Program-made: the position numbers and the translations under genes | The notes under the pieces: model-generated | The model's database searches: none | The model's input: the letters and a program-made list of their open reading frames with translations, nothing else | What the model was told of the DNA's origin: nothing | Shown here: piece after piece, positions 2,695 to 19,943 of the stretch | How the letters are laid out: each line of letters opens with the position of its first letter | Position numbering within the stretch: position 1 is the stretch's first letter | Origin: Bdellovibrionales bacterium | GTDB lineage: Bacteria > Bdellovibrionota > Bdellovibrionia > Bdellovibrionales > UBA1609 | NCBI GenBank assembly: GCA_022842925.1 | Contig: JALHOQ010000001.1 | Span: forward strand, 1-36,588 | Length of the DNA: 36,588 nt | Direction: 5' to 3'

Positions 2695-3399
2695 TTATTT
2701 TTCCCAAAGTTCAACATCGTCATCTTGAAGTGACTGAAATCCACATTTTTTAAAAACAGTGCGCAACATTTCTACTTTCACAGGATCGGCCCGTAGATCC
2801 AGTTCATGGTAAAGGTGAACGCCCTCGTTTTGCGCAAGGCCTGTGACCCACTTCAATAAACCCAACTCAAGACCAACACCCTCGACCGTCGCGTTGATAT
2901 CTAAAATCCTATAGGAATCTTTCTTTTCCTGCTGCATTACCAGGGTGGAATTGGCGACACCATTTCGATCAGGATAAGAACAATAAATCTGCGCAGTTTT
3001 TTTCCAAAACCCATTAATAGTCGGCTTTCCGGGTGGAGGCCTTTTTTCGTATTTGGGAATTTTGTTTGTCTGTGCGAGAGTCTTGAATCTCTCGTAACAT
3101 GGATCTGATTTCTTGCTGCTGTCATGAATGAAGTCATCGTCATTCATCCATACAAAATGGACGACTTTTTCATCATCTATGATTTCATAAAAAAGGCGGT
3201 ACTGGGCCAACACCGGTGCCGCCCGATATTTACCCAAGTTGTACTTCAGATCACCGTAGTCTTTGCCGGGATTTAATAGGACGGCCGAAATGGCTTCCTC
3301 AGCATTTTGATAACGCTGTTGTTCCTTCTTGTTGCCGTCTTTAAGACGGCGAAGCTCATCCTTTAAAATTTCGCTCAGATGCTTGGTCCAGGTGCTCAT
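2695..3399 (-). CDS. YhaV/RelE-type toxin domain fused to a GNAT-like acetyltransferase domain
   Basis: The protein has 234 residues and two parts. Residues about 28-115 resemble the YhaV/RelE ribonuclease toxin fold, with LGKYRAAPVLAQYRLFYEI followed by KVVHFVWMNDDDFIHD and a KSDPCYERFKTL ending, matching the RyRLfF...vWvND...Dpy.vF pattern of YhaV. Residues about 130-234 resemble the second half of a GNAT acetyltransferase: a VEGVGLELGLLKWV stretch like the acetyl-CoA-binding helix start, LDLRADPVKVEMLRTVFKKCGF, and a final ELW strand. Known toxins of both classes act on translation, but their fusion is unusual. No AbrB/PrlF antitoxin is adjacent; the divergent gene at 3,645 is the only nearby candidate partner. 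The toxin half is more certain than the acetyltransferase half, and activity is untested. Confidence 0.6.
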   Translation of the reverse strand: MSTWTKHLSEILKDELRRLKDGNKKEQQRYQNAEEAISAVLLNPGKDYGDLKYNLGKYRAAPVLAQYRLFYEIIDDEKVVHFVWMNDDDFIHDSSKKSDPCYERFKTLAQTNKIPKYEKRPPPGKPTINGFWKKTAQIYCSYPDRNGVANSTLVMQQEKKDSYRILDINATVEGVGLELGLLKWVTGLAQNEGVHLYHELDLRADPVKVEMLRTVFKKCGFQSLQDDDVELWEK

Positions 3400-6266: not shown

Positions 6267-6332
6267 AACATAACAATATCGCAGTGCGTCAAGTCCATGT
6301 ATTCTCCGTTTGAATTCATCACGGAGGATGAA

Positions 6333-6878
6333 ATGAAACGCCGAACTAAAAAACCGAGACCCTTCAAGAAAGACCCTGAATTAAGCGATCTCCAAGGCTG
6401 GAAGCCCTGGATCGACAAACAGGGAAAACGTCTTCCCATCGACATCCTAAAGATCATCGCCAGGCGCTGGAACGAGGAAACATGGAATGCCTACCTCGAC
6501 TCATTTGAGGAGCCAGCTCACGAAAAATACGTGTCCGAGCAAATGTGGATCGACATCACCGAGCGCCTCACTGAAAGCGTGTTCGTAAATGTCGCCGAGC
6601 CTGCGCCTTTTGAAATCGATCAAGAGGTGGATTCGAATGTCCAAATTCTTCCGAACTTTCACCGCCAGGTGATCCGCATGACCTACTGGCAAAACATGAG
6701 CGTAAGAAGGATCGCAGCCGCCTTAGGGCTCACTAAATCCGTTGTTCAAAGGATGGTGAAAGACGCCGAGCAAACTTTGCGAGCTCTAATTAAACAGCCC
6801 CTGGGACACTTTGCCCTTAGTGAAGGCACTAAACAACCAAACAGGGAGAGGAAAAATGACCAAGACATTTCTGCGTGA
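6333..6878 (+). CDS. Sigma-region-4-like HTH protein, first gene of the T4SS operon
   Basis: This 181-residue protein starts at the ATG at 6333, chosen because GGAGG sits 5 bases upstream; an upstream ATG at 6297 lacks a good site. The C-terminal part (LPNFHRQVIRMTYWQNMSVRRIAAALGLTKSVVQRMV) reads as a sigma-70 region-4-type HTH: LP...R.V...Y....S...IA..LG.....V......A...LR. The N-terminal half has no recognisable sigma region 2, so it is probably an HTH regulator rather than a full sigma factor. It opens the conjugation operon and overlaps the following 44-codon gene by 23 bases. A role in controlling the transfer operon is inference from position. Confidence 0.7.
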   Translation: MKRRTKKPRPFKKDPELSDLQGWKPWIDKQGKRLPIDILKIIARRWNEETWNAYLDSFEEPAHEKYVSEQMWIDITERLTESVFVNVAEPAPFEIDQEVDSNVQILPNFHRQVIRMTYWQNMSVRRIAAALGLTKSVVQRMVKDAEQTLRALIKQPLGHFALSEGTKQPNRERKNDQDISA

Positions 6879-6990
6879 TCTTAAGTTTTGGCTAAAGACG
6901 TTCATCTGTCCTGAAGATGCCCAGGATTGGGCGCGGTTGGAATTTGGACGTTCCCTTCAGAAGCATGATCTCGATGGAAGGCTCTCGTGA
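6856..6990 (+). CDS. 44-residue small protein in the operon
   Basis: This is a short gene with a good ribosome site (GGGAGAGGA, 5 bases before the ATG). It encodes 44 residues, beginning MTKTFLRDLKFWLKTFICPE. It overlaps the upstream gene by 23 bases and its TGA overlaps the next gene's GTG (GTGA), so it looks translationally coupled on both sides. That arrangement is the main reason to call it real. No family is recognised. It may mainly couple translation of the two HTH genes. Confidence 0.5.
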   Translation: MTKTFLRDLKFWLKTFICPEDAQDWARLEFGRSLQKHDLDGRLS

Positions 6991-7253
6991 AAGCGTCCTC
7001 AGAGCTTGTCGATTCCCTCTGGGAATCACTGGAGCCAGGATCAGCCCTGCTCCAGGCACTCCAAGGACTATCTCCTCAGAGCCAGCGGGCCATTTACCTA
7101 AGGTTCTGGGAGAATTCGACGATTGAGGAAATTGCCGACGAGCTTCGCCTCACTTGGGATGAAGCCGACTTTTTAATCGAGGAATCAATTTTTAACCTTA
7201 GAGAGCACCTCTCTCTAGTTTTGGATCTCTTAGAGATCTCGCACGCTGGCTAA
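6987..7253 (+). CDS. Second small sigma-region-4-like HTH protein
   Basis: This 88-residue protein uses a GTG start at 6987, overlapping the preceding stop. Residues about 28-75 (LSPQSQRAIYLRFWENSTIEEIADELRLTWDEADFLIEESIFNLREHL) match the sigma-70 region-4 pattern of Ls...r.ai.LrF.e..tieEIA..L.....e....e.a...LR. It has no other domain. It lies 10 bases before a strong ribosome site for the next gene. Two adjacent region-4-only proteins at the head of a T4SS operon suggest a dedicated regulatory pair. They could bind promoter DNA or the RNA polymerase flap, but this is inference. Confidence 0.65.
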   Translation: MKASSELVDSLWESLEPGSALLQALQGLSPQSQRAIYLRFWENSTIEEIADELRLTWDEADFLIEESIFNLREHLSLVLDLLEISHAG

Positions 7254-7263
7254 GGAGGCCGTT

Positions 7264-7641
7264 ATGAAGGAAGCTCAACCCGCAAACTACAATCGATTTG
7301 AGGTTTTTCAGAACTTAGAGGCCGAGCGCATCGTCGGCCAAGCTTACATGCGTGAGGGCGATCCGCTCATCACGCTTAAGCTCTACACGGTGGTGAATGA
7401 AAAGTTCTTCGTTCTAATGTGCAAGGGTGACTCATCCAGATACCTAATTATGACCCGTGAAGAAAATCGAGGGCCGAAGAAGAGCAAGTACATTTGGCAC
7501 ATTGTCGGAAACGGAAAAGTCGATACCGCAAAAGGCGTCGTTCAGCTCGATTTCGATTTGTTCAATAGACCAATTTTCATGAGCCTTTATCCGAACAGGA
7601 GACCGAATCTCAAAATTGCCAATGAACAGGAGGCATCATAA
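7264..7641 (+). CDS. Hypothetical protein in the T4SS operon
   Basis: I do not recognise this 125-residue protein. It follows a strong TAAGGAGG ribosome site and its stop overlaps the start of the pilin gene by one base, so it is certainly part of the operon. It has no signal peptide or membrane segment. The sequence alternates short beta-like stretches (ITLKLYTVVNEKFFVLMCKG, RYLIMTREENRGPKKSKYIW, GVVQLDFDLFNRPIFMSLYP), which suggests a small beta-rich cytosolic fold such as a nucleic-acid-binding barrel; that is only a guess. Position immediately before virB2 suggests an accessory or regulatory role in pilus biogenesis. Confidence 0.6.
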   Translation: MKEAQPANYNRFEVFQNLEAERIVGQAYMREGDPLITLKLYTVVNEKFFVLMCKGDSSRYLIMTREENRGPKKSKYIWHIVGNGKVDTAKGVVQLDFDLFNRPIFMSLYPNRRPNLKIANEQEAS

Positions 7642-7922
7642 TGAAAAAAATTAATCCGCACGTTCTGCTGGTACTTTTTTGCCTTTTGCTTTGCCCGCTG
7701 CTTGCTCACGCAGGCCTTGAATCAAGCCTCATGGGAATCAAAAACAAACTGACCGGCGTGATCCTGCCAGTTCTCTCCGTGATCGGAATTGCGATTGCCG
7801 CAATTTCCTTCTTTACGGGGAACCCCAATGCAAAACAGCACATCGCCTACGCGATCATCGGTTGTATTTTTGGGTTCGGAGCGCAAGCCATCGTCGATTT
7901 CATTTCGCAAACGGTGCGCTAA
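7641..7922 (+). CDS. TrbC/VirB2-type conjugative pilin
   Basis: This 93-residue pilin precursor begins with a signal peptide (MKKINPHVLLVLFCLLLCPLLAHA, likely cut before GLESS). Two hydrophobic helices follow, LTGVILPVLSVIGIAIAAISFF and IAYAIIGCIFGFGAQAIVDFI, separated by a short polar GNPNAKQH loop. This is the VirB2/TrbC architecture, and the length is in the usual range. After export, the mature peptide would assemble the conjugative pilus. Neighbours confirm it: the virB3-like gene starts at the very next base and virB4 follows. TrbC-type cyclisation cannot be judged from sequence. Confidence 0.85.
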   Translation: MKKINPHVLLVLFCLLLCPLLAHAGLESSLMGIKNKLTGVILPVLSVIGIAIAAISFFTGNPNAKQHIAYAIIGCIFGFGAQAIVDFISQTVR

Positions 7923-8228
7923 ATGGATGACGAATTGATGGTTACGAAAGTTCCGCGCGCGCTTGAGATGAAAAGCAAGCTCTTCGGATTTGAACTTCCA
8001 GACTTGCTTCTCATCTTCATGAATCTCGCGGTTACAAACCTGATTTTCGGATCGACTGAATATCGTTACTCGCTCGTGTGGGGAACCTCGCTTCTGCTAG
8101 CTGGGTTCCTGTTCTTTGCAAAACGCGGCCGGCCGGATGGCTACCTCCAGGACCTTGTCCAGTTTTGGACGAGACCCAGCTACCGGTCGGCCGCCGGAAT
8201 GGACCGAAAGTTTAAACGCTTTTCTTGA
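7923..8228 (+). CDS. TrbD/VirB3-like inner-membrane protein
   Basis: This 101-residue protein has the VirB3/TrbD layout. A short cytosolic N-terminus (VTKVPRALEMKSKLFGF) is followed by two hydrophobic segments (LPDLLLIFMNLAVTNLIF and YSLVWGTSLLLAGFLFFA) and a basic tail (FWTRPSYRSAAGMDRKFKRFS). VirB3 works with VirB4 at the inner-membrane T4SS complex. The gene sits between pilin and ATPase, as in virB and trb operons, with no spacer before it. Its end is 14 bases before the preferred GTG of the ATPase gene. Confidence 0.8.
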   Translation: MDDELMVTKVPRALEMKSKLFGFELPDLLLIFMNLAVTNLIFGSTEYRYSLVWGTSLLLAGFLFFAKRGRPDGYLQDLVQFWTRPSYRSAAGMDRKFKRFS

Positions 8229-8242
8229 AAAAGGAGTTTTGC

Positions 8243-10729
8243 GTGAAGTTAGAACACGCCTTGTCTGAAGAACTGCCTTATTGGCAGTTCTTCAAAAACC
8301 CCGTACCACATGGCGTTCTTACGAACGGCCATCTGGTCCGTGGAGCACAAGTTTCGCTCAAAGATATCGAGTGCCTCGACGACTCAGAAGTCAATTCGTT
8401 CACAATGAATTTGCGGGGCGCTCTGAACTCGCTCGCTGAAGGCGTGCGCGTTCAATTCCGGCTAAACGTAGACTCGGACTTTTCGGAGGCAATTGAGCGG
8501 CATCATTCCCTTAAATCTTCAAAACTCTCACGCATTGTCGAAGCTATTGCAGAGGAGCGCATCAACGTTTTGAGAGGTGCCCAAGAAACTGGAGAACTCT
8601 ATCGTCCAAAGCTCACACTCTTTCTCCAAATGCCAATGCTCGTGAAAAGGAAGAGCGGCTTTTTAAAGCGGGCTGAGGAATTCGAAAAAGTCACTGAGAG
8701 CACTTATCAGGAATCTCTAGATGCCTTGAATGAGAATTTTGAAAGCCTGCTCTCGGCAATGCGAAACATTGGACTTGAATGCACTGATCTTGCCGACGAA
8801 GCCTTCAAAAGCCAAATCTATGAATTCATGAACCCGAAAAGATGCCTCGAGCACGAAGCTCCCGTTGTGACCAATCCCACTGATGGCGATTTGCCCAAAG
8901 AGATCGTCGAGGAAAGCCCGTGGCTTTCTCCGCAATCTCCGCGGGGCCAGCTCGTCTTTGGCGATCTGTTGATCTGTTCGCATTCCTTCGTCCTTGATGG
9001 CTTCAGCCATCGCGTAATTTCGCTCAAAACCTTGCCCGAGGTAACATCAGCCGGTCAGCTTTCAAGTTTCTTAAGGCTTCCATTTCACTATTCACTCACC
9101 CTCTCGTTCGAGGTTCCTCCACAGAATGCGGAGATGGCGAAACTCAATCAGCGCAGGAAAATGGCGCATTCGCTTGCGACAACTCACGGTGCGAGTGCAT
9201 CGGACCTTGAAAGCGAAACAAAACTCTCCGCGACTGAAGAGCTGATCCGCGAACTGTTAAACACGAACCAGAAAATCTTTGCTTCACAGCTCGTCATCAC
9301 GCTTAAAGCCCCCATTGGCGATGAAGGCACAAAGACTTTAAATCGCCAGGTCCGAGAAGTCCTGTCTCGCTTTCGTATGCTCCAAGGCGCTGAAGGTCTT
9401 GAAGAGAGTGTAGGCGCATGGAAGGTGCAAAGAAATACTCTGCCCGGCGCAGTTTTATCGCTCGACCGCGCACGCAAAATGAAAACCAACAACTTGGCGG
9501 ACTTCCTGCCGGTGTATGGTCCGCGTGAAGGCGATCTGATCCCAGCAGTCCTTTTTAGAAATCGCATGGGTGGCCTCGTAAAGTTTAATCCATTTGACCC
9601 AAACCTTCCCAACTACAATGCGCTAGTCACCGGGTCATCTGGGGCCGGGAAAAGTTTTTTAAACAACTGCATTCTTCTTCAAGAGCTGCAACAAAACCTC
9701 CGCGTCTTTATTATCGACATAGGAGGCTCCTACAAGAAGCTAACCGAAACCCTTGGTGGTCAATATCTCGAAATGAATCTTTCAAACGGATACAAGATCA
9801 ACCCGTTTGATGTTCCAAATCCGAAAGCCGAACCTAGCACGCAGAAACTAAAGTCACTGCTCGCATCCATTGAGTGCATGGTGTCTGATGACGACGGTGT
9901 CAAGCTCCCAAAAATCGAGCGCGTCCTTCTTGAAAAGGCGTTGCTCGATCTTTATGAAAAGTTTCGTCAAAAGGCCAAAGTGCCGACTTTGTCCGCTCTT
10001 CGGGATTTTTTAGCAGCGTCAAATGAGCCGTCACTAAAGCGGATTTCAACCATGCTTTATTCCTGGACCGGGGATCGCCCCTACGGAAAACTGCTCGACG
10101 GCGAAGGTAGCCTTCGCACCGACGCACGCATCTGCACTTTCGATCTTAAGGGCCTATCCAGTTACCCGGATCTTCAGAGCGTTATGACGCTCATGCTGAC
10201 CGAGTTTATTCTCACCCAAGTTGAACTCGATAGAACATCGAACAAGCGAATCATCCTTGATGAAGCCTGGGAGTTGCTCAAGTCGCCGGCCGCGGCCTCG
10301 TTCATGGAGTATTGCGCCCGCACACTAAGAAAGACAGGCTCAGGGATTACGTTCATCACCCAAGGTCTTGAAGAGATTGTCGCAAGTCCCATCGGCTCTG
10401 CCATTTTGAACAACACGGCTACCAAATTCGTGATGCTCCAACGGGGCGATGCCAAGGTTCTCGCAAACACCCTGAAGCTCAATCCCCAGGAGCTGGCCCT
10501 TATTCATTCGCTTGAGCAAAGGAAGGGAAAGTTCTCGGAAGGGTTCATGATCGAGGGCAACCACCGGCAAGTCATCCGCATCTTTCCAACGCCGCTCGAG
10601 TATTGGATGGCGACTTCAGACTCCAAAGACAACGCGGAACTTATTCGCCTGCAAATGGACGGGCTCTCGATTGAGGACAGTATTTTTGAAGCTGCACGAA
10701 CGTACCCGAAGGGACGTTTCAGTGCCTAA
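8243..10729 (+). CDS. TrbE/VirB4-type conjugation ATPase
   Basis: This 828-residue T4SS ATPase energises pilus assembly and substrate export at the inner membrane. The GTG at 8243 is preferred because AAGGAG lies 6 bases upstream; a TTG at 8225 overlaps the virB3 stop but places that AAGGAG inside the gene. The N-terminal ~400 residues form the CagE/TrbE/VirB domain. Walker A is GSSGAGKS at 464-471 and Walker B is RIILDEAW with D673-E674. A downstream TGSGITFITQGLEEI motif matches the family. Length is normal for VirB4/TrbE. It follows virB2-virB3 in the usual order and is the only assembly ATPase visible in the cluster. Confidence 0.92.
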   Translation: MKLEHALSEELPYWQFFKNPVPHGVLTNGHLVRGAQVSLKDIECLDDSEVNSFTMNLRGALNSLAEGVRVQFRLNVDSDFSEAIERHHSLKSSKLSRIVEAIAEERINVLRGAQETGELYRPKLTLFLQMPMLVKRKSGFLKRAEEFEKVTESTYQESLDALNENFESLLSAMRNIGLECTDLADEAFKSQIYEFMNPKRCLEHEAPVVTNPTDGDLPKEIVEESPWLSPQSPRGQLVFGDLLICSHSFVLDGFSHRVISLKTLPEVTSAGQLSSFLRLPFHYSLTLSFEVPPQNAEMAKLNQRRKMAHSLATTHGASASDLESETKLSATEELIRELLNTNQKIFASQLVITLKAPIGDEGTKTLNRQVREVLSRFRMLQGAEGLEESVGAWKVQRNTLPGAVLSLDRARKMKTNNLADFLPVYGPREGDLIPAVLFRNRMGGLVKFNPFDPNLPNYNALVTGSSGAGKSFLNNCILLQELQQNLRVFIIDIGGSYKKLTETLGGQYLEMNLSNGYKINPFDVPNPKAEPSTQKLKSLLASIECMVSDDDGVKLPKIERVLLEKALLDLYEKFRQKAKVPTLSALRDFLAASNEPSLKRISTMLYSWTGDRPYGKLLDGEGSLRTDARICTFDLKGLSSYPDLQSVMTLMLTEFILTQVELDRTSNKRIILDEAWELLKSPAAASFMEYCARTLRKTGSGITFITQGLEEIVASPIGSAILNNTATKFVMLQRGDAKVLANTLKLNPQELALIHSLEQRKGKFSEGFMIEGNHRQVIRIFPTPLEYWMATSDSKDNAELIRLQMDGLSIEDSIFEAARTYPKGRFSA

Positions 10730-10742
10730 GAGGGGGTGTATT

Positions 10743-11450
10743 TTGAAAAGTTTGAAAAAAGCGTTTGCTGCCGTAATTGCGGCAAGCTTGATTCTAGTCT
10801 CTCCGCAAGGCAAGGCCGACATGTTCGGTGGAGACGTCGTAGTTCTAACCCAAATTCTTGCAAACGCCATTCAGCAGCTCATCCAACTTCGCGAAATTCT
10901 CCAGACTGGCGGCGATACACTTGATCTAATGAAAGAGATCAATCGCGGAATTAAAGACGGGCTTAATGCTATCCGAATGATTAATCCGAAGTTCAATCCC
11001 GGCCTTTACGGAAATCTCAATACGGCAGAGCAAGTCTTAAGCGCAATCGAGGATCTTTACGGCAGAATTCCACAAACTCGCGAAGCAAGGCTTCTTGAGG
11101 CGCAGGACCGGAGCGTTGCCGAAAGCATCGCCATGAATTCAACGCTCTACGAATTTGCAAATCAGGCCGACAAAGAAAGTCAGCGGATTATGGATCACGC
11201 AGCCGTCGTCAACCCGCAAGGAGCGGGTAAGCTCACCGCTCAATCCATTGCCGTTTTAATCGGTGTCACTACTCAAGTTCTTCGAACCAACTCGATGATG
11301 CTTAAGATGATGGGACAGGACATGGCTCTCTCAAATCGCAAAGGAAAACTGCAAGCCGAGCAGTTCAAAAATCAATACGAAGGAATTTCTGAAAGCGCCG
11401 GGCAATTGCCAAAGAAGATGTCCCTTCAAACCGTGAATGGCGGTCTATAA
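10743..11450 (+). CDS. TrbJ/VirB5-like periplasmic protein
   Basis: The TTG at 10743, with AGAGGGGGTG just upstream, gives a 235-residue protein with a proper signal peptide (LKSLKKAFAAVIAASLILVSPQGKA, then DMFGGD). A longer frame from 10671 overlaps virB4 and hides the signal. The mature part is helical, with VVVLTQILANAIQQLIQLREIL near the start, which resembles TrbJ proteins of P-type transfer systems; these are thought to act at the pilus base or tip, like VirB5. The last base of its stop overlaps the next ATG (TAATG), indicating translational coupling to trbL. Confidence 0.75.
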   Translation: MKSLKKAFAAVIAASLILVSPQGKADMFGGDVVVLTQILANAIQQLIQLREILQTGGDTLDLMKEINRGIKDGLNAIRMINPKFNPGLYGNLNTAEQVLSAIEDLYGRIPQTREARLLEAQDRSVAESIAMNSTLYEFANQADKESQRIMDHAAVVNPQGAGKLTAQSIAVLIGVTTQVLRTNSMMLKMMGQDMALSNRKGKLQAEQFKNQYEGISESAGQLPKKMSLQTVNGGL

Positions 11451-12331
11451 TGCTTCAGTTTGAAAATTTAAGTCCATTGATGCAGGCCCTCCATGCGGAC
11501 TTCACAAAACTGTACTTTCTGATGCTCCCGGTATTCTTCGCGTTGGCGGTTTGCCTTCAATGGTTCAAATCACCAAGCGGTGCAATTGACTTTGTGGATA
11601 TCTTGAAACGCGCAGTTGTTTCAACGCTACTGCTCGTGGCCTTTCCAGAAATCTCAAAGGCCATCATTGCCGTGAGCGATGGAATTGCCGATCGAATCGA
11701 CAAGATTGATAGCACACAAGCCATCATCGACATGGCAGCGCAAAAAGCGGAGAGCTACACCTTCACAAAGGAAAGCATCCTACTTGCCTTTGATGACTTG
11801 ATTATTTCCGCGATCACATTTGTAAGTTACTGGATTTTACTGTTCGCAAGGCATCTGACGGTCGCCATGTACAATTTCTTCTGGGTATTTTTGAGCGTCG
11901 TCTCGCCATTAATGCTTTTGTTCAATCTTTTTCCGGGAACTAGTCACATCACGGCGAATCTTTTTAAGTCCATGATTGAGGTCGCGAGTTGGAAAATTGT
12001 TTGGGCGATCCTAGGAGCCATGCTCACATCACTCGTGTTTGTGGACGTCTATAAGCTCGAAGGCGCCTATGCAACATTGACCATTATGAACACGCTGTTT
12101 GCGGTGTCCATGCTCGCCACACCCTTGATCGTCAGAAACCTCGTGGGACCTGGAATTCAGCACGCGAGTACTGCCGTAGGACCCGCAGCCGTCCTTGCAA
12201 TGGGGTGGGTTGCGAGGACTGGGCTCGTTACCGCCGGAAAGGCACACAATCAATTGAGGCAATGGTCAAGACCACGCCCAAAGGTTGAAGTTCCGCAAGA
12301 ATTTGGAACAGAGAAAAGGAGTAAGAGATGA
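11450..12331 (+). CDS. TrbL/VirB6-like polytopic inner-membrane protein
   Basis: This 293-residue multi-pass membrane protein has about five to six hydrophobic segments, including LYFLMLPVFFALAVCLQWF, LLVAFPEISKAIIAV, FVSYWILLFARHLTVAMYNFFWVFLSVVSPLMLLF, IVWAILGAMLTSLVFV and TLFAVSMLATPLIV. It has a basic C-terminal tail. Size and topology fit TrbL/VirB6, which forms part of the inner-membrane channel. It is coupled to trbJ by TAATG and to the virB8-like gene by ATGA. Divergence of this family makes the call depend partly on position. Confidence 0.8.
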   Translation: MLQFENLSPLMQALHADFTKLYFLMLPVFFALAVCLQWFKSPSGAIDFVDILKRAVVSTLLLVAFPEISKAIIAVSDGIADRIDKIDSTQAIIDMAAQKAESYTFTKESILLAFDDLIISAITFVSYWILLFARHLTVAMYNFFWVFLSVVSPLMLLFNLFPGTSHITANLFKSMIEVASWKIVWAILGAMLTSLVFVDVYKLEGAYATLTIMNTLFAVSMLATPLIVRNLVGPGIQHASTAVGPAAVLAMGWVARTGLVTAGKAHNQLRQWSRPRPKVEVPQEFGTEKRSKR

Positions 12332-12915
12332 ATCCGTTAAAGGTTAGTTTTAAACCCCAAGTATTTCCAAAAATGCTGGCGGATTTGAGTCATTCAAATC
12401 AGTTCCTAAAAGTATTTGCTACGGCAAGTATGCTCATTTCACTTGGACTTTTGATTCTGGTCTCTGCACTCGCGTCTCGCGGGCCAGTAGTTATCGCATT
12501 GTCACCTCAGGCAGGACGTTTGCAAAAGGTAGAGATGCCAAAGCCCGAGCTTGAAGTTCAAGAGGCGGTGCGAGCCTATGTTGAGCTTAGGTACAACTGG
12601 GACCACACATCTGTTGACGCGAAACTTGAGTCGGCCAAAGCCTTTGTGTCTTCGCAGTTTGTCCAAAATTTCGTACAGGGCGTCTCAAATGTTAGGAAAT
12701 TCTCCAAAGAGAAGAACGTCGCCCAGCGCGCTTATGCCGCAAATATCACCGTCGATCTTAAGCGAAGTGTCGCCACCGTCACCGGCGACCGTATATCGGA
12801 AATTCAGGGCATTCGGGCTGTGGGCGCGCTCAACATTGAGCTAACCTTTCAAAGTGGACCGCGTACCGATTTGAATCCTTGGGGAATCTACATCGTGAGG
12901 GAAACCGAAAAATAA
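12328..12915 (+). CDS. VirB8/TrbF/TraE-like inner-membrane protein
   Basis: This 195-residue protein has one N-terminal transmembrane helix (VFATASMLISLGLLILVSALAS) and a periplasmic domain containing VQEAVRAYVELRYNWDHTSVDAKLESAKAFVSS and alternating strands (AANITVDLKRSVATVTGDR). This is the layout of VirB8/TraE scaffold proteins, which link the inner-membrane complex to the core channel. The ATG overlaps the stop of virB6 (ATGA). The gene precedes the virB9-virB10 pair, again as expected. An 85-base spacer with no evident signal follows. Confidence 0.78.
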   Translation: MNPLKVSFKPQVFPKMLADLSHSNQFLKVFATASMLISLGLLILVSALASRGPVVIALSPQAGRLQKVEMPKPELEVQEAVRAYVELRYNWDHTSVDAKLESAKAFVSSQFVQNFVQGVSNVRKFSKEKNVAQRAYAANITVDLKRSVATVTGDRISEIQGIRAVGALNIELTFQSGPRTDLNPWGIYIVRETEK

Positions 12916-13000
12916 AAAATCGCCTTTAAATCGACACCGCGGGGCCAATAGGGCGTCCGCACACTCGCGAATCATCAACCTTAGCCCCGAGGAGACTAAC

Positions 13001-13699
13001 GTGATATTCGCCTTTTTATTGTTTTCCTCCTTCGCACACGCAGATTTGGCTCGTGTGCGAAAGGTCGAAGTTAAAACCGATCAGATCGTGACCGTTAAAA
13101 CCGCAATCGGTGTTGCCACCATCGTTCAAGTCCCAGATCGTCCAACAAGCCTCGTGGTCGGCGATAGTGAATCCTTCAAAATCGAATATCTCGATCAAGC
13201 GATCACCATAAAACCCTTAAGAAGTGGCGCAAAGAGCAACCTCTACATTTATACCGATTGGAAAAGATTTAACGTTCAGCTAGTCACCGGCCCTGAGGCC
13301 GCTGCCGATTACGTCGTTTATCTCTCAACACCGATGAAAGCCCCTCCGCCTCAAGATCCAATTCAATGGACAGACGTTGCCCTTGAAGCGAAAGCCGAGG
13401 ATCTGTCTCTTACAATCAAGCGGATTGGTCGCCTAAAAAGTGAGTATATCTTTTTCGAGTTCAAGCTCGCTGGCAAGAAGATGGACGTTGATCCGTCGTG
13501 GTTCTGGCTCACTCAAGGTGCAAAGTCGCGTCCCGTGCATCGATTGCTCTTGTCCAAGTTGAGCCTGAATCAAGATGCCCCAGTCGAGGGGCTGCTACAG
13601 GTTCGGCTCAAAGATATCGCTCGAGATAGTTTGAACGTCGAAGTTAGACGCAAGAAGACCATCGTCCTCAAAATTCCAAAGGAGATTTTATGGCGGTGA
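13001..13699 (+). CDS. VirB9/TrbG-like outer-membrane-complex protein
   Basis: This 232-residue protein starts at a GTG after GAGGAG. It has a short signal peptide (MIFAFLLFSSFAHA). The VirB9/TrbG N-terminal motif is clear: VATIVQVPDRPTSLVVGD, then ITIKPLRSGAKSNLYIYTDW and KRFNVQLVTG. The remainder is beta-rich (YIFFEFKLAGKKMDVDPSWFWLTQG), consistent with the C-terminal VirB9 domain, although it is diverged. VirB9 with VirB10 forms the outer-membrane core complex. The end overlaps the start of the VirB10-like gene by 10 bases. Confidence 0.85.
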   Translation: MIFAFLLFSSFAHADLARVRKVEVKTDQIVTVKTAIGVATIVQVPDRPTSLVVGDSESFKIEYLDQAITIKPLRSGAKSNLYIYTDWKRFNVQLVTGPEAAADYVVYLSTPMKAPPPQDPIQWTDVALEAKAEDLSLTIKRIGRLKSEYIFFEFKLAGKKMDVDPSWFWLTQGAKSRPVHRLLLSKLSLNQDAPVEGLLQVRLKDIARDSLNVEVRRKKTIVLKIPKEILWR

Positions 13700-14598
13700 A
13701 TGAAGGTTTTTTTCGAAGGCTGTTTTTCGCAGAACGTGTGCCGTTCTCCGAAAAACGCGATGTGAATTGGAAAGCTGTTAAGTGGGTGCTTCTAGGTGTG
13801 GTCGCCCTGTTTGTTCTGGTCGTGCTTGCAATGCCGAGCACACCCGAACAAGTTCCGCCCGAAGAAGTAGAGGCCGTGACCTTGCAACGCAGGGAAATGG
13901 AGCCACATCAAGCTGAAGTGATTCCAAGTTCGCAAAGATTATCAAATTACTATTCCTCAAATCGAGGATCGGGCTCGGCGCCAAATCGACAGGGTCCCAT
14001 GGTCGTTACTCGCGGAGGACTCGACTACAAGACTCAGCTTCCGCCAGGCTCCAGAATCCGCGTTCGATTGCTCCAAGGGGCCATTGTTTCATCTGAAAGT
14101 ATGCCGATCATAGGACTTGTGATTGAAGATGTCTCTACTGAGAGCGGTGTTGCAGTCGAGAAGGGCTCCCGGATCTTTGGCGAAGCCTCTTTTGATGACT
14201 CAGGAGATGTGGCAACCGTCGTTTGGACCTCACTCCAAACGCCAGATGGCCGCGAGAGGCAGATGGCTGCAATCGGGGTCTCCCTTTCTGGTCACGTGGG
14301 AGTTCAAGGCGAGGTTCATTCAAAACGAGGTCAAAACATCGCTGGCAGCACCATTTCAAGATTCGTCGGCGCCTATGCCGAAGGCTCAGTTGAGCGCGGC
14401 GTGCTTGGCTTCTCCAAGGGAGGTGCCAAGAACGGCCTTAAGACTGCGGTTGCTGAAACGGCAAAGGATCAAGCCGACTCTTACGCAAGCGATCTAAAGC
14501 GTGAAAAACGATGGATTGAGCTCGAAGCCGGAAATGAATCGCTCGCGGTTTTAAAACAGCCCTTCGCTTTCAGAGATCCAGGTAGTTATGGAAGATAG
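13690..14598 (+). CDS. VirB10/TrbI-like core channel protein
   Basis: This 302-residue protein has a cytosolic start, one transmembrane helix (WVLLGVVALFVLVVLAM), a Pro- and Glu-containing periplasmic linker (PSTPEQVPPEEVEA), and a C-terminal TrbI-like region. That region has GSRIRVRLLQGAIVSSESMPIIGLVIEDV and GSRIFGEASFDDSGDVATVVWTSL, the beta-barrel-type motifs of VirB10/TrbI. It is shorter than many VirB10 proteins. VirB10 spans the envelope and senses ATP energy from VirD4 and VirB4. It overlaps virB9 upstream and virD4 downstream by 10 and 11 bases. Confidence 0.85.
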   Translation: MAVNEGFFRRLFFAERVPFSEKRDVNWKAVKWVLLGVVALFVLVVLAMPSTPEQVPPEEVEAVTLQRREMEPHQAEVIPSSQRLSNYYSSNRGSGSAPNRQGPMVVTRGGLDYKTQLPPGSRIRVRLLQGAIVSSESMPIIGLVIEDVSTESGVAVEKGSRIFGEASFDDSGDVATVVWTSLQTPDGRERQMAAIGVSLSGHVGVQGEVHSKRGQNIAGSTISRFVGAYAEGSVERGVLGFSKGGAKNGLKTAVAETAKDQADSYASDLKREKRWIELEAGNESLAVLKQPFAFRDPGSYGR

Positions 14599-16186
14599 GC
14601 GGTTTCAAAACTCCGACCACCTTCTGACATTTGCACTGCTTTTTGTCGGATGTGCGGTCGTGAATAAATACTGGCCGATCTTTCAGGCTTGGATGACTCC
14701 TGTTGAAAACCGGATGGCCCTGCTCATTCTTGTGCTCATTCCGGTAGGGCTCCTGCTTTACCGGGCAATCGACGCAGTTATACGTCGGCTTGAGAAGGCT
14801 TCCTTCGAGCGAAGTATTCTTGGGGCCGAAAATGGCGCGGTTTTCTGCGGACACACCGTGTCCGGCGAAGGCGTGTTCATAAAGACCCGCCAGCGCGGAA
14901 TGCATACGCAAGTCATTGGAACAACGAACGCCGGCAAGACCGAGTCCGTAATTCTTCCCTGGGCTATTCAAGATATTCAACAAGGAAGAGGACTCATCCT
15001 TATTGACGGTAAGGCGGATCGCTCACTGCTAGAGAAAATCCATTCGTATGTAGTGAAGGCTGACCGTGCAAAAGACTTCAAACTCTTCTCAATAAGTAAT
15101 ATCAACGAATCATCGCAATTTAATCCGCTAATTGGGGGCACTACCGAACAGATTGCCGAAAGAGTCTTCAATGCTTTTGAGTTCGATAATCCCTACTATC
15201 GAAGCGTTCAGTTCGAGATTTTTGCACAGGTCCTTAGAATTTTTGAAGCGGGAAGAGTCGTTCCGACCTTCGAGCGTCTGCATCAGGCCATTTGCCAGCC
15301 AAAACGCCTGCGCTTGATCTTAGATGCTCACAGTCCAGCCCTAACTACGTGGCTCAATGAATTTTTGAACCTAGATGCCAATGAACGCGACAAGCGCACC
15401 AGCGGTTTAACTGCGGCCTTAAGCCATTTTGCATTTGGCGAGCCTTCGCTTCTTTTTAATTCGGAACGGCCATCAATCGATTTGAAGAAAGCTCTGGCTA
15501 ATAACCAGATCATTTATTTCCAACTCCCGGTGCTGCTCGCACCATTTCTCGGAAAGGCGTCAGGAAAGTTGGTTCTTCAAGCCCTTCAAAGTGCCGTCGC
15601 TGAAAGGCACAAGAGCGGAAAAGGGACATTCTTTTCTGTGTTTTTGGATGATTTCACCGAGTATCTTTACCCAGGTTTTGTTTCAATACTCAACAAAACA
15701 CGGAGTGCAGACATTGGTGTGGTCTTCGCCCATCAGGCCTTGGGCGACATCAAGACCTTAGGGGACGCTATCGCCAATTCGATCCTCACTAACTCGAATC
15801 TAAAAATCTTCATGCGTGGCAGTGATCCCGAGTCGGCGGAATATTTCGCGCGCGTCATTGGCACCAAAGAAGCCATGAAGTTTACTGAGCGGACCAAAAG
15901 AGGAGTGGCTGGTCAGAGTTACACCGGCGATGCTTCCGCACGAGCTGTTGAGGAGTTCGTGATTCATCCCAATCGATTTAAATCGAGCCTTGGCGTCGGT
16001 GAGGCCATCATGGTCGTTCCCCACGAAAAGGGAAGTAAAACTGTGCACATGAAATTTAGGAAGTTTGATGATCTTCCGGCAGCTCCAATTCCAAGTATCG
16101 AAAAATCAAAAGCGGGTCCGCTTCCGGACAATGAACCCATAATCCTAAAAAAGGAGGACGTAGTATGCGAATTGGTATTCGACTAG
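14588..16186 (+). CDS. VirD4/TraG/TraD-type coupling protein
   Basis: This 532-residue coupling ATPase would bring the DNA-protein substrate to the channel. Two N-terminal transmembrane helices (LLTFALLFVGCAVVNKYW and MALLILVLIPVGLLLYRAID) precede the motor domain. Walker A is GTTNAGKT at 111-118, and a Walker B-like FFSVFLDDFTEYL carries D354-D355. The segment from LNKTRSADIGVVFAHQALGDI matches the TraM-recognition region of TraD/TraG. Presence of a coupling protein argues for DNA transfer rather than a pure effector system. It overlaps virB10 at the start and the lipoprotein gene at the end. Confidence 0.92.
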   Translation: MEDRRFQNSDHLLTFALLFVGCAVVNKYWPIFQAWMTPVENRMALLILVLIPVGLLLYRAIDAVIRRLEKASFERSILGAENGAVFCGHTVSGEGVFIKTRQRGMHTQVIGTTNAGKTESVILPWAIQDIQQGRGLILIDGKADRSLLEKIHSYVVKADRAKDFKLFSISNINESSQFNPLIGGTTEQIAERVFNAFEFDNPYYRSVQFEIFAQVLRIFEAGRVVPTFERLHQAICQPKRLRLILDAHSPALTTWLNEFLNLDANERDKRTSGLTAALSHFAFGEPSLLFNSERPSIDLKKALANNQIIYFQLPVLLAPFLGKASGKLVLQALQSAVAERHKSGKGTFFSVFLDDFTEYLYPGFVSILNKTRSADIGVVFAHQALGDIKTLGDAIANSILTNSNLKIFMRGSDPESAEYFARVIGTKEAMKFTERTKRGVAGQSYTGDASARAVEEFVIHPNRFKSSLGVGEAIMVVPHEKGSKTVHMKFRKFDDLPAAPIPSIEKSKAGPLPDNEPIILKKEDVVCELVFD

Positions 16187-16587
16187 TCTTGAGCTTTTTT
16201 GTTGTTGGCTGCTCCACCGCCAACAAAAGTGTCGGTCTTGGCGGAGCGGTAGGCGCAGGAACCGGCGCGCTGATTGGTGGCATTGCCGACCCTGGAAAAA
16301 ATGGTGAGCTTAGAACTCGCAACGTTCTAATCGGCGCGACCCTTGGGGGCATGACAGGAATGGTAGCGGGCTCCCTGATCCACAAAGAATCTGAGAAAGC
16401 GAAGAAAGAGGCGTTCTTAGCGGGCCAAAAGACAGCTGTGCCGGCAACCCCTGGGGCGATGCCAGCCATCAGCCAGCCCCGAGTCGAAACGCATTGGATC
16501 GAAGGCAGAGTTCAAGGCAATCGCTACATTGAGGGCCATTTTGAGTACGTGATTGTCGAGCCTGCGCGCTGGGATGTGAAGCAATGA
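16165..16587 (+). CDS. Glycine-zipper lipoprotein of the T4SS operon
   Basis: This 140-residue predicted outer-membrane lipoprotein starts at 16165 after AAGGAGG. The signal peptide ends at the lipobox VVGCS. A glycine-zipper helix (GLGGAVGAGTGALIGGIA) and a second one (GATLGGMTGMVAGSLI) follow, then a Lys-rich helix and a WIEGRVQGNRYIEGHFEYVI strand region. Small lipoproteins near T4SS genes often serve VirB7- or TrbH-like roles, but this is not a clear VirB7 homologue. It overlaps virD4 by 22 bases, and its stop overlaps the next ATG (ATGA), placing it firmly in the operon. Confidence 0.75.
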   Translation: MRIGIRLVLSFFVVGCSTANKSVGLGGAVGAGTGALIGGIADPGKNGELRTRNVLIGATLGGMTGMVAGSLIHKESEKAKKEAFLAGQKTAVPATPGAMPAISQPRVETHWIEGRVQGNRYIEGHFEYVIVEPARWDVKQ

Positions 16588-17279
16588 GACCAAGAATTGA
16601 GCCCATCGAAGAGATCAAATTTGCAGCTCGCCATGGCTTTTTAACTAAAGCCTTGTGGATCGAGTTTTTCGGAACCGGCACCGGCAACTGGCGAAATCGG
16701 CGCTGGAAACATTTTCGAGATTCGGGAATGTTCCGCGGTTCCAGGGACCATCTGGACCTGCTTATACCTAACTCGAAACACCCCTTGGTAAGAGAACATG
16801 CACCTCTTGTCTCGCGGCCGCCACGGATTGAGCAGCTCGCGCACGATACGGCCATAGCTCGCGGGGACCTAGTCCTTAAGCGGTCCATTCCCCGGATACG
16901 GATAGTTGTTGAAGCCGAGGCCAAGCGAAAGGAAAGCTTTTTTAATCGAGGTTTTTCAAATTTAGAACTCGATAAGTTTCCCGACCTTGCCGTGTGGCAG
17001 GATGGCTTTGGGGTAGCAGTTGAAATCGAAACGTCGACAAAATCAAAAGAACGATACAGAGAAATATTTGAGCGATACAAATCCGCAAGCTTTAGTCACG
17101 TGGTCTATGTGGTCGCAGACCTTGAAATGAAAATCCTAATCGACAGCATAGCTGAGGGGTACAAAAACCATTACCTCATTGGCTTTGCCTCCCTGAAGAG
17201 TTGGCTTGAAGATCCGGCAAAGGCAAAAGTAGTGACCGACTCAGAGCCAGAAAAATTCAAGGATCTGTTTCGGATTTAA
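16584..17279 (+). CDS. Replic_Relax-like protein with PD-(D/E)XK-type motif
   Basis: This 231-residue protein is coupled (ATGA) to the lipoprotein gene. The N-terminus (AARHGFLTKALWIEFF, then NRRWKHFRDSGMF) resembles a winged helix, followed by LVREHAPLVSRPPRIEQLAHDTAIARGDLVL. The C-terminal part has P133-D134 in FPDLAVWQDGFGVAVEIETSTKS, with E147, E149 and K153. Together this resembles the replication-relaxation (Replic_Relax, PF13814) layout with a restriction-endonuclease-like fold. A role in nicking, replication or relaxosome formation is inference. It is the last gene before a large inverted repeat, and no classical relaxase is seen in the window, so it is a natural candidate for the element's initiator protein. 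The domain assignment is from memory of the motif pattern. Confidence 0.6.
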   Translation: MRPRIEPIEEIKFAARHGFLTKALWIEFFGTGTGNWRNRRWKHFRDSGMFRGSRDHLDLLIPNSKHPLVREHAPLVSRPPRIEQLAHDTAIARGDLVLKRSIPRIRIVVEAEAKRKESFFNRGFSNLELDKFPDLAVWQDGFGVAVEIETSTKSKERYREIFERYKSASFSHVVYVVADLEMKILIDSIAEGYKNHYLIGFASLKSWLEDPAKAKVVTDSEPEKFKDLFRI

Positions 17280-17285
17280 GAACAA

Positions 17286-17353
17286 TTCGCGAACAGTTTC
17301 AGTACGAACGTACGAAAACGGTTCCGAAACTCGAAAATCTTCAATCGCGAAAA
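17286..17353. repeat. Cluster of small palindromes and CGAAA repeats
   Basis: The stretch contains the palindrome TTCGCGAA (17286-17293), GTACG-AA-CGTAC (17302-17313) and four CGAAA repeats at 17313, 17325, 17332 and 17348. They lie immediately left of the large inverted repeat and right after the Replic_Relax-like gene. Iterated sites beside a hairpin are typical of origins of transfer or replication. The function is inferred. Confidence 0.4.
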
Positions 17354-17371
17354 GGCAGAAAAACTAAATGC

Positions 17372-17487
17372 TTACCCCGCCACCGCCCAGATATCGGCCT
17401 CTGGGTCGCTGCTGACCCCTCCCCCTCCACGATGTTACGGGAAAGGGGTCAGCAGCTGAGTCCAATATCTGGGCGGTGGCGGGGTAA
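17372..17487. repeat. 116-nt nested inverted repeat, oriT/origin candidate
   Basis: The outer arms are perfect 23-bp complements (17372-17394 and 17465-17487; both contain the GCCACCGCCC core or its complement). The inner arms are perfect 13-bp complements, GCTGCTGACCCCT (17408-17420) and AGGGGTCAGCAGC (17444-17456). A 23-base loop lies between, and unequal internal loops (13 and 8 bases) separate the arms. Neither arm is followed by a T tract, so a simple terminator is unlikely. Its place between the transfer operon and RHH/xis/int genes makes oriT or a hairpin origin the leading reading, but a recombination site or a mobile repeat is possible. Confidence 0.6.
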
Positions 17488-17503
17488 TGGAAGGTAGGAA
17501 GAG

Positions 17504-17818
17504 ATGAAAATGATTTTTAAGAATAGGGAAGGAAGAGAGGAGAGGGTGTTGACATTGATTGCAGTATCCTTACTAGCAATGTTCTGGATTGGGATGTGTT
17601 CGGCGAACGCTCAACAACATGTGCGCACCGAGGAGATCAAAGCCAAGCTTTGTAGCAAGGACCTCTGCCTCACTAGGTGGAACAGTGTCGCCATTCTAAA
17701 CTGTCAGCCCCGGCCTGAGTATCCGTCAGCTCCAGACACTGACATGGTATTTGGCGCCTTTATCCAAGGACCAAGCAGCTGCTGGTGCCCATGCAACTTC
17801 CCCAAGTTCTACCCCTAA
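17504..17818 (+). CDS. Small Cys-rich secreted protein, hypothetical
   Basis: I do not recognise this 104-residue protein. An N-terminal hydrophobic stretch (LIAVSLLAMFWIGMCSANA, probable cleavage before QQH) follows a basic, charged start, so it is likely exported. The mature part has six Cys (KLCSKDLC, NCQPRP and CWCPCNF), suggesting disulfide bonds or metal binding. The C-terminus is Pro-rich. It starts 17 bases after the large inverted repeat and is read away from it. A gene in this place would be among the first or last to enter a recipient if the repeat is oriT. The function is unknown. Confidence 0.55.
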   Translation: MKMIFKNREGREERVLTLIAVSLLAMFWIGMCSANAQQHVRTEEIKAKLCSKDLCLTRWNSVAILNCQPRPEYPSAPDTDMVFGAFIQGPSSCWCPCNFPKFYP

Positions 17819-17846: not shown

Positions 17847-18221
17847 ATGAATCAAGAAAATTCGGACGGTCAGCCTAAAGGACAATTCAGAGTGGTGATT
17901 GACCGTGAAGCCAATGATGCCTTGGAAAGCTATGTTGCGAAGTTAAACAGGGACAATGACACCTCAAAAGTGTCGAAATCCGACCTCGCTAATTTCATCT
18001 TCCAAAGAATTGACGATCTCCTAGGCGACGCAGATATCGCGGACATCCGGGCCAAGTATTTTGATGCGAAGAAAGCCATCGAAGTCATCCTAAAGGGTGG
18101 GGCAACCCTCCCTGGCGAAATCCATGAAGCCCTCCTAAAGCATTGTGGAATTAAGCCTGCGACCAAGGAGAAGCGAGCCAAGAAGTTATCCACACCAAAG
18201 CTTGTGGATAACGTCAGCTGA
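17847..18221 (+). CDS. Ribbon-helix-helix-like DNA-binding protein (relaxosome accessory candidate)
   Basis: This 124-residue protein starts after AAAGGAG. FRVVIDREANDALESYVAKLNRD gives a beta strand and helix, and KVSKSDLANFIFQRIDDLL a second helix, which together fit a ribbon-helix-helix fold as in plasmid mobilisation accessory proteins (MobC, TraY-like). The C-terminal tail is Lys-rich (KEKRAKKLSTPK). Placed beside the oriT candidate and before xis and int, it is a plausible relaxosome accessory or regulator. The last codons overlap two inverted DnaA boxes, so the DNA here may do two jobs. The specific family is not certain. Confidence 0.6.
   Translation: MNQENSDGQPKGQFRVVIDREANDALESYVAKLNRDNDTSKVSKSDLANFIFQRIDDLLGDADIADIRAKYFDAKKAIEVILKGGATLPGEIHEALLKHCGIKPATKEKRAKKLSTPKLVDNVS
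18185..18212. promoter_or_regulatory. Inverted pair of perfect DnaA boxes
   Basis: GTTATCCACA (18185-18194) and TGTGGATAAC (18203-18212) are perfect 10-bp inverted arms around an 8-base centre. Each contains TTATCCACA, an exact match to the DnaA box consensus TTATNCACA. They lie inside the last codons of the RHH gene, 64 bases before xis. Possible roles are DnaA-dependent replication, cell-cycle control of excision or DnaA titration; this is inference. Confidence 0.6.
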
Positions 18222-18277: not shown

Positions 18278-18538
18278 ATGATCACTTCCGCAGAACGAGA
18301 GGGAAATCTCGTTAATTTTCTGCTCTTTGAAAATCAAAAAGGCTGTATGAGTCTTAAGGAGTTCTCCTCGAGATTCGGTTATCCAATCAAAACACTTTAT
18401 GATTGGAAACATCGACCCTCGAAATACAAAGCTCCTAAAGACTTATTCATCAAGTTTAATAGAGATGTTTTTGTCCGTCTTGATGTCCTGCACTCATGGT
18501 TGATCGCCCAAAACCCGGTTCTCCGGGAAGGAGATTGA
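18278..18538 (+). CDS. Excisionase-like (AlpA/Xis-type) HTH protein
   Basis: This 86-residue protein starts after a strong AAAGGAGG site. SLKEFSSRFGYPIKTLYDWKHRPSKYKAPKDLFIKFNRDVFVRLDVLHSWL has the winged-helix MerR-like arrangement of AlpA/Xis excisionases: HTH, a loop with K/R-rich residues, and a final R.D.L..WL strand-helix. It ends two bases before the integrase ATG. Xis proteins bend att DNA and steer integrase towards excision. Adjacency to int and tRNA supports that role. Confidence 0.75.
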   Translation: MITSAEREGNLVNFLLFENQKGCMSLKEFSSRFGYPIKTLYDWKHRPSKYKAPKDLFIKFNRDVFVRLDVLHSWLIAQNPVLREGD

Positions 18539-18540
18539 TT

Positions 18541-19788
18541 ATGAGTATAGAGGTCAGAAAGACGAAAAATGGAGTGGCTTATCACGTTCGCTATCGACCG
18601 GCGGGTAAGCACTCTAATCATGTTGCCAAGTCCTTCAAAAAAATGTCTGAAGCTCGCGAGTTTCAGGCCATTGTGACGAAGGAGATCGCCAATTCGCGCC
18701 TAGGATATTCGACAACTCTTAGTTTCGAAAAAACTACGATTGCCGAAGAAGCAAACTTTTGGCTCGAACAAATGAAAATTGAATTGTCTGCGGGGTGGCA
18801 TAAGCGGGCCTCGAATCTGATTAGCCAGATTCTAATCCCTAAATATGGTCACCTTTCGCCAGACAAATTCAATGTCGCATTTATTCGGCGAATCCAAGCT
18901 GAACTCAAGAACACGAAGCTTCGAAACAGAGCTTCGAGAGTTCTTAGCAACAGTTCAGTAAATCGCTTCACTGAGGTCTTGTGCGCAATTTTGAACTATT
19001 CGGCAAAGACTCAACGAATTCCAGTAAACCCCGCTAAGGGGTACAGCAAGCTTCCTGACGAACGAATCGAAATTTCTTACTGGCAGCCCGAGGAAGTTAA
19101 AGACTTCCTCGGCTACACCTCTAAGAAATATCCGAAAGGCCACGAAGAGCGATGGGTGTATGCTGCCTTATTGGTGGCCCTTAATTGTGGGATGCGAGCG
19201 GGAGAACTGTGGGCCCTAATGCCTGAAGATATAAAAGAGGAGACTCTATATATTAAAAGGCAGTGGCGCGAGATTGAAAAGCGGTTCGACCTTCCAAAAG
19301 GGAAGAGGAACCGCAAAGCCAAAGACAGGCTTCCTTATCGTCACACCGTTCTTCACCCATTCGTCAGAAATGAGTTGCTTGAGATCATTCGGCAGCGAGA
19401 AGTCAGACCTAGCCAGACCATCTTCTACGGTGAAGAAGGTCAGCCCCGCGGACATAGGAGCTTTGCTCATAGATTCGAGCGGCTCATAAAGGCGTGGGGA
19501 GGTCGGCGGATTCGCTTTCATGATCTCCGCCACACGGCAATCACGCTGTGGGTGCATGCTGGGATTAATCTCAAAGTCATACAAGATATGGCTGGTCACG
19601 AGAGCATTTCCACCACCATGGGATACATCCATATGGTTGGCGGCAGTGTTAACAAAATCAGTCGGTTTCATCTTGTAGCCGAAGATCGCGATCTAAAAAT
19701 GATCGAGGGAAACTCCGATTTCAAAGAGCGGAGTGATTCGGATTCTGACGGAGAAATTCTGAGTAGTTCTGAACGAGGTGTACGTTAG
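18541..19788 (+). CDS. int: Phage-type tyrosine integrase of the element
   Basis: This 415-residue integrase starts at the ATG at 18541 after GGAAGGAG; a longer frame from 18496 would overlap xis. The N-terminus (MSIEVRKTKNGVAYHVRYRP) is an arm-binding domain, a core-binding domain follows at about 65-165, and the catalytic domain has R219 (NCGMRAGE), H327 and R330 (HDLRH), H353 (GHESISTTMGY) and Y362. It ends 78 bases before the 3' end of tRNA-fMet, the usual arrangement for tRNA-targeted islands. The stop overlaps the first of two 11-bp direct repeats that resemble arm-type sites. Confidence 0.93.
   Translation: MSIEVRKTKNGVAYHVRYRPAGKHSNHVAKSFKKMSEAREFQAIVTKEIANSRLGYSTTLSFEKTTIAEEANFWLEQMKIELSAGWHKRASNLISQILIPKYGHLSPDKFNVAFIRRIQAELKNTKLRNRASRVLSNSSVNRFTEVLCAILNYSAKTQRIPVNPAKGYSKLPDERIEISYWQPEEVKDFLGYTSKKYPKGHEERWVYAALLVALNCGMRAGELWALMPEDIKEETLYIKRQWREIEKRFDLPKGKRNRKAKDRLPYRHTVLHPFVRNELLEIIRQREVRPSQTIFYGEEGQPRGHRSFAHRFERLIKAWGGRRIRFHDLRHTAITLWVHAGINLKVIQDMAGHESISTTMGYIHMVGGSVNKISRFHLVAEDRDLKMIEGNSDFKERSDSDSDGEILSSSERGVR

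Positions 19789-19866: not shown

Positions 19867-19943
<77 letters not shown>

Follow-up and report, generated by a model that had tools for sequence, protein, structure and literature searches.

The 36.6-kb window, meaning the whole stretch of 36,588 nucleotides analysed here, opens contig C1 in a draft Bdellovibrionales genome, window base 1 being the first base of the contig. A large nested hairpin lies in a gap between genes, from 17279 to 17504, and raises the question of what such a structure does beside a conjugation operon. On the sequence comparisons presented below, it is very likely the nic-bearing part of the origin of transfer (oriT) of an integrative conjugative element (ICE) that uses a MOB_C (PD-(D/E)XK-type) relaxase. 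This reading is based on the adjoining MOB_C relaxase gene, the fixed synteny, the compensated stem and the match between a model of the hairpin and the inverted repeat of enterococcal plasmids.

The hairpin and its neighbouring genes

The initial annotation had described a nested hairpin of 116 nt with perfect arms and unequal internal loops, and the coordinates confirm every part of this. The hairpin occupies 17372-17487 on the forward strand. Its outer stem pairs 17372-17394 with 17465-17487 (23 bp, perfect) and its inner stem pairs 17408-17420 with 17444-17456 (13 bp, perfect), separated by internal loops of 13 nt (17395-17407) and 8 nt (17457-17464) and closed by an apical loop of 23 nt. 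These arms are the longest perfect inverted repeats of the window at spacers of up to about 120 nt, the next being 12 bp. Folded as single-stranded DNA, the hairpin has a minimum free energy of -49.5 kcal/mol (z -11.2) that was equalled by none of 200 shuffles; folded as RNA, z is -8.6. In agreement with the initial annotation, the T tract of an intrinsic terminator is absent, and GGAAGGTAGG directly follows the stem on the 3' side. A search of the window against Rfam returned tRNA as the sole RNA family and left the hairpin unmatched.

Upstream, all on the forward strand, a type IV secretion system (T4SS) block extends over 7641-16186 and includes VirB4/TraC, CagX/VirB9, TrbI/VirB10 and the VirD4/TraD coupling protein; the VirB2-like to VirB10-like genes occupy 7641-14598 and the coupling protein 14588-16186. 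They are followed by a gly-zipper lipoprotein-like gene that is a conserved neighbour (16165-16587) and by the relaxase gene (16584-17279, 231 aa), whose stop is 93 bp from the hairpin start. Downstream on the same strand are a small ORF immediately 3' of the hairpin (17504-17818), also found in the second element of this genome, a conserved accessory gene (17847-18221), a gene called HTH/excisionase-like on a weak basis (18278-18538) and a tyrosine integrase (18541-19788). The placement given initially, between the transfer operon and RHH/xis/int genes, thus holds for the T4SS operon on one side and a cassette of small genes and integrase on the other, and the RHH label of 17847-18221 stays at the level of a motif: the protein has no Pfam match and its structure model, of low confidence (pLDDT 63), does not confirm an RHH fold.

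The integrase ends 78 bp from a tRNA-Met gene on the reverse strand (19867-19943), which is probably the integration target of the element. No att direct repeat of the tRNA-Met end that would fix the left end of the element was found in the window, whose base 1 opens the contig, nor a convincing one elsewhere in the genome. Mobile-type genes extend from the left edge of the window through the integrase, and the SRP/rimM/trmD/rplS region at 24.8-29.9 kb consists of chromosomal genes, judging from the translations. Two adjoining tyrosine recombinase genes, distinct from the element integrase, lie at the very start of the contig (160-2488), and a gene on the reverse strand (2695-3399) has a YhaV-toxin domain match barely over the Pfam cut-off. 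Two small sigma-70 region-4-like genes (6297-7253, the first one Pfam-tested) are found immediately 5' of the T4SS operon and are possible dedicated regulators.

The gene directly upstream of the hairpin region had been left unnamed in the initial annotation. According to the alignment and the structure model, it is the gene of a predicted MOB_C relaxase with a PD-(D/E)XK fold. MOB_C relaxases are PD-(D/E)XK enzymes (PMC12857230, PMC5714925), and a scan of element proteins for a canonical HUH relaxase found none. The product gives a partial match to the NCBIfam MobC replication-relaxation model NF041423 (E 3e-7) and misses its cut-off, with 29.9 bits against 200; the MOBC-typed relaxase of pAM373 is also under the cut-off (23.7 bits), so NF041423 represents one MobC subfamily to which the product does not belong. 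The pattern PD..ExExxxKxxxRY is common to ten homologues, and P133, D134, A145, E147, E149, K153, R157 and Y158 are invariant in their alignment (A4). A family HMM recognises the pAM373 relaxase with E 9e-8, and the same residues align, with AD replacing PD. These positions are presumably the residues mutated in TraX.

The AlphaFold2 model of the product (pLDDT 89) has its best PDB matches in EcoT38I, Hjc and other PD-(D/E)XK nucleases, that is restriction endonucleases and Holliday-junction resolvases, of which the first one alone has E < 0.001. Alignment and model agree on a PD-(D/E)XK fold with the conserved D, E-x-E, K and R-Y. The N-terminal part of the model begins with three helices followed by short strands, an arrangement compatible with a winged helix. 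A tblastn search with the window MobC against plasmids gave no match.

The spacer between the relaxase gene and the hairpin holds a candidate binding site at 17280-17324 on the forward strand, with GAACAATT and GAACAGTT at 11-bp spacing and an inverted copy ending in GGTTC. The CGAAA iterations and small palindromes noted initially 5' of the hairpin are present, and the dyad GAACAGTTTC...GAAAACGGTTC has a p value of 0.02; as iterons they are not borne out by plain autocorrelation of the window spacer (p 0.84). The repeat signal within the window alone is weak, and the 11-bp repeat fits a pattern seen throughout the family. A significant dyad is present in 20 of 37 mobC-hairpin spacers, most of them ending 52-61 nt before the hairpin region, and direct-repeat lags of 11 and 12 are enriched (z 5.5 and 5.8), with lags 6 and 7 also raised. 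Many spacers have two direct copies and one inverted copy. The repeat sequences vary between elements, as would be expected for a specificity site, and the repeats are probably a relaxosome-binding site. In staphylococci, the specificity of oriT is set by an accessory protein (PMC8136818).

Conservation and linkage within the phylum

By BLAST, 20 of 197 relatives have sequence related to the hairpin. The aligned relatives have in common the end of the inner stem, TGACC(C/A)CT, and the loop CCC.C(T/C)C(C/A)ACGATGT, and mean identity is 0.32 in the outer arms compared with 0.76 in the core. The phylum-wide conserved motif GACCMCTCCCNCYCMACGATGT (17414-17435, forward strand) is a candidate for the nic region. 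Compensatory changes across related elements, the check proposed initially, were found in the inner stem: 97.1% of its cells are paired, 8 of the 13 pairs have double changes, and the covariation score was reached by none of 500 shuffles and nowhere near reached by slid controls. The aligned inner stem has 2 wobble cells, and G-T pairs make up only 2.8% of the axis pairs in 80 hairpins, which favours, short of proof, a hairpin that works as DNA. Swapping outer arms between hairpins separated native from chimeric combinations weakly (26.0 against 19.5 pairs), probably due to CCGCC-rich sequence common to many outer arms, and the covariation claim is therefore limited to the inner stem. The initial annotation took the long arms as a sign of selection on the folded strand; the strongest conservation is in the inner stem and loop and not in the outer arms.

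A 61-nt covariance model of the hairpin core, R1, was trained solely on this phylum and matches 166 of 369 phylum genomes at E 0.01 or better, with up to 11 matches per genome, a count in which weak matches may be chance and both strands of one hairpin may each score. The exact loop pattern occurs at 37 loci in 84,980 species genomes, nearly all of them labelled Bdellovibrionota-type or placed in the phylum here. An exact-motif match in a Lachnospiraceae MAG (L061) was rejected as chance, there being no hairpin at that locus. Scanning IMG/VR with the loop pattern gave 0 matches, and plasmid and phage sequences gave no meaningful BLAST match to the hairpin. Six variant hairpins (L121, L126, L129, L135, L125 and L119) have a small side hairpin within the 5' internal loop and a predicted three-way junction. 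Hairpins and flanks are nearly identical across several genera at L122, L130, L137, L158 and L166 (G130, G102, G003, G113 and G110), which suggests recent intergeneric spread of one element.

When 82 hairpin copies were inspected, picked from the stronger matches and not randomly, mobC was found within 700 bp in 62 and an integrase alone, within about 2.5 kb, in 17; the remaining three lacked both, and two of these lie at a contig end or close to one. Most often VirD4, lipoprotein and mobC come first, followed about 60-130 nt on by the hairpin and then by the accessory gene and a serine or tyrosine integrase. The side is reversed in a minority (e.g. L044, L134, L162, L170, L175), with mobC and VirD4 3' of the hairpin. 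The reciprocal search, starting from the protein, gave a hairpin match at 24 of the 30 best mobC loci, and most of the six others reach a contig end close to the gene. The genome studied here has further copies on contig C6, with identical gene order and the contig broken within the loop, and on C31, with a serine integrase. Draft contigs tend to stop in or near the hairpin (G000:C6:44192-44244 and other mobC contigs), and the hairpin may for this reason break assemblies and be under-counted.

Enterococcal counterparts and relaxase-less satellites

A large inverted repeat near the relaxase gene is also characteristic of the oriT of the pAD1/pAM373 kind. The transfer origins of pAD1 and pAM373 were found experimentally (Francia and Clewell 2002, as cited in PMC5587640). 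Beside the MOBC relaxase gene, pAM373 has a hairpin whose outer arms measure 18 bp and whose inner arms, of 25 bp, include CCTGACCA; its loop contains CAACG, and five repeats with a 12-bp period lie alongside. R1, which was built without pAM373, matches the hairpins of enterococcal plasmids (L181-L186) with E values from 2.5e-6 to 0.055 in 77 kb. The match to pAM373 itself is marginal (0.055) and those to its relatives are stronger (L186 2.5e-6, L185 1.1e-5, L183 and L184 0.0012, L182 0.0037). The five direct repeats to which the pAD1 relaxase TraX is reported to bind are 70-120 bp away from nic (PMC12857230), and this distance together with the geometry of pAM373 would place nic inside the hairpin and plausibly in its conserved motif.

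The likeness to the pheromone plasmids pAM373 and pAD1 (oriT2) includes the nested perfect stems, the unequal internal loops, the inner stem TGACC(A/C), the loop CAACG, the adjoining PD-(D/E)XK relaxase and, probably, the short direct repeats alongside, which have a 12-bp period in the plasmids. The elements described here differ from the enterococcal plasmids in that they are ICEs in the chromosomes of a Gram-negative phylum, their T4SS is F-like, their outer stem is GC-rich and an accessory gene and integrase lie downstream. The five direct repeats of the plasmids are often replaced in their upstream site by two direct copies and an inverted one. CloDF13 and Vibrio MOBC plasmids, which have a relaxase of the same superfamily (NF041423), had no R1 match in the records searched; their oriT either belongs to a different type or has diverged too far for the hairpin model, and the oriT type described here is thus not that of all MOB_C systems.

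Satellites without mobC and with a serine integrase (L143, L046-L050) have two or three different repeat clusters within the 450 nt upstream of the hairpin, one of them nearly identical to that of a conjugative element. L143 holds AGGTCTGCACTCGGACTGCACAGTGTGCAGACC, which also occurs in L150, a conjugative element from a different genus (local score 35, shuffles reaching no more than 15), and a second, different cluster. Up to three clusters are found in L046-L050, one L141-like (31-36 against at most 18 when shuffled) and one resembling L049/L039/L041 (about 21). The second clusters of L143 and L047 have no partner in the 369 genomes beyond the satellites themselves, and most of the remaining satellites show no clear match. 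Relaxase-less mobilisable plasmids of the staphylococcal pWBG749 type and iOriT hitchers copy the oriT of a helper, and some have 2-3 different mimics (PMC8136818, PMC11389934). As in that mimicry, elements without a relaxase here appear to have helper-type transfer sites; unlike the staphylococcal mimics, which are several complete oriTs, the variable sites appear to be stacked before one common hairpin. Tentatively, and with a little less than even confidence, we suggest that conjugative elements and integrase-only satellites have one nic hairpin in common and that the stacked clusters may let several helpers mobilise the satellites.

Alternative functions and the proposed role in transfer

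The very stable fold of the single-stranded DNA, the conserved apical loop and the small, possibly early genes immediately downstream in many elements would also suit a single-strand origin (sso) or Frpo-like site, where the entering strand folds into the hairpin and primase or RNA polymerase is recruited to it for second-strand synthesis or early transcripts, with nic elsewhere nearby. That this is its function instead of nicking is improbable, because the homologous structure in enterococcal plasmids forms the inverted repeat in their MOBC oriT region (PMC5587640, PMC12857230) and because relaxase-less satellites keep both the hairpin and relaxase-site-like repeats, for which a need to be nicked is the best explanation; the same site could have such an activity in addition. 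An RNA element is less probable again, be it a regulatory 5' UTR belonging to the accessory gene or a terminator or attenuator that separates mobC from the downstream cassette. The hairpin does fold as RNA, same-strand transcription units lie on both sides and in many cases only about 40 nt separate it from the start of the accessory gene; however, there is no U tract and no Rfam match, and so few G-T pairs and wobble cells are unusual for an RNA helix. What the hairpin precedes may also be a serine integrase, an unrelated tyrosine integrase or, in some elements, mobC itself, and the gene order differs in the enterococcal plasmids that carry it.

A repeat family scattered over many genomic places had been named initially as the finding to look for against a transfer origin. 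The number of matches per genome, the integrases that are nearly always close and the contig of this genome broken inside the hairpin could point to a recombination site or dispersed repeat (att, attC-like, REP/MITE), yet 79 of the 82 copies adjoin mobC, an integrase or both, and mostly occupy a fixed position within the element. The hairpin moreover occurs with both serine and tyrosine integrases, which have no att sites in common, and the weak BLAST matches in the rest of this genome are short stretches of the arms. This is the least probable of the explanations and is hardly to be expected. The initial suggestion of an oriT has gained support from the neighbouring MOB_C relaxase, the synteny, the compensatory stem changes and the covariance-model match to enterococcal plasmids.

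The computational results establish the structure, its covariation, the gene linkage, the identity of the relaxase and the homology to enterococcal MOBC-linked hairpins, and a transfer cycle from the proposed oriT may be outlined on them. The N-terminal DNA-binding part of MobC, or the small accessory protein, would dock at the element-specific repeats (17280-17324), about 50-75 bp upstream. The hairpin, extruded as a putative cruciform or single-stranded, would present the conserved inner stem and loop (GACCMCTCCC..CYCMACGATGT), and MobC would nick one strand in or near this motif. The VirD4 coupling protein and the T4SS would then export the nicked strand. The refolded hairpin may aid the end of transfer and the rejoining of the circle in the recipient, where the integrase would insert it, probably at tRNA-Met.

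No earlier account of the phylum-wide hairpin or the satellites was found in the literature searched, in which subscription journals are thinly covered. The phylum-wide extent, the structural motif across phyla, the binding site of three repeats and the satellites with stacked sites are possibly new. MOB_C oriTs are known in detail from few enterococcal plasmids, and a hairpin that can be searched for with a model ties these plasmids to ICEs of a mostly uncultured, partly predatory phylum. The hairpin is a marker for finding conjugative and mobilisable elements in the phylum, and its conserved inner stem and loop indicate where nic is to be expected. Mobilisation of relaxase-less satellites by several helpers becomes directly testable, and the hairpin could provide native transfer origins for genetics in relatives of Bdellovibrio.
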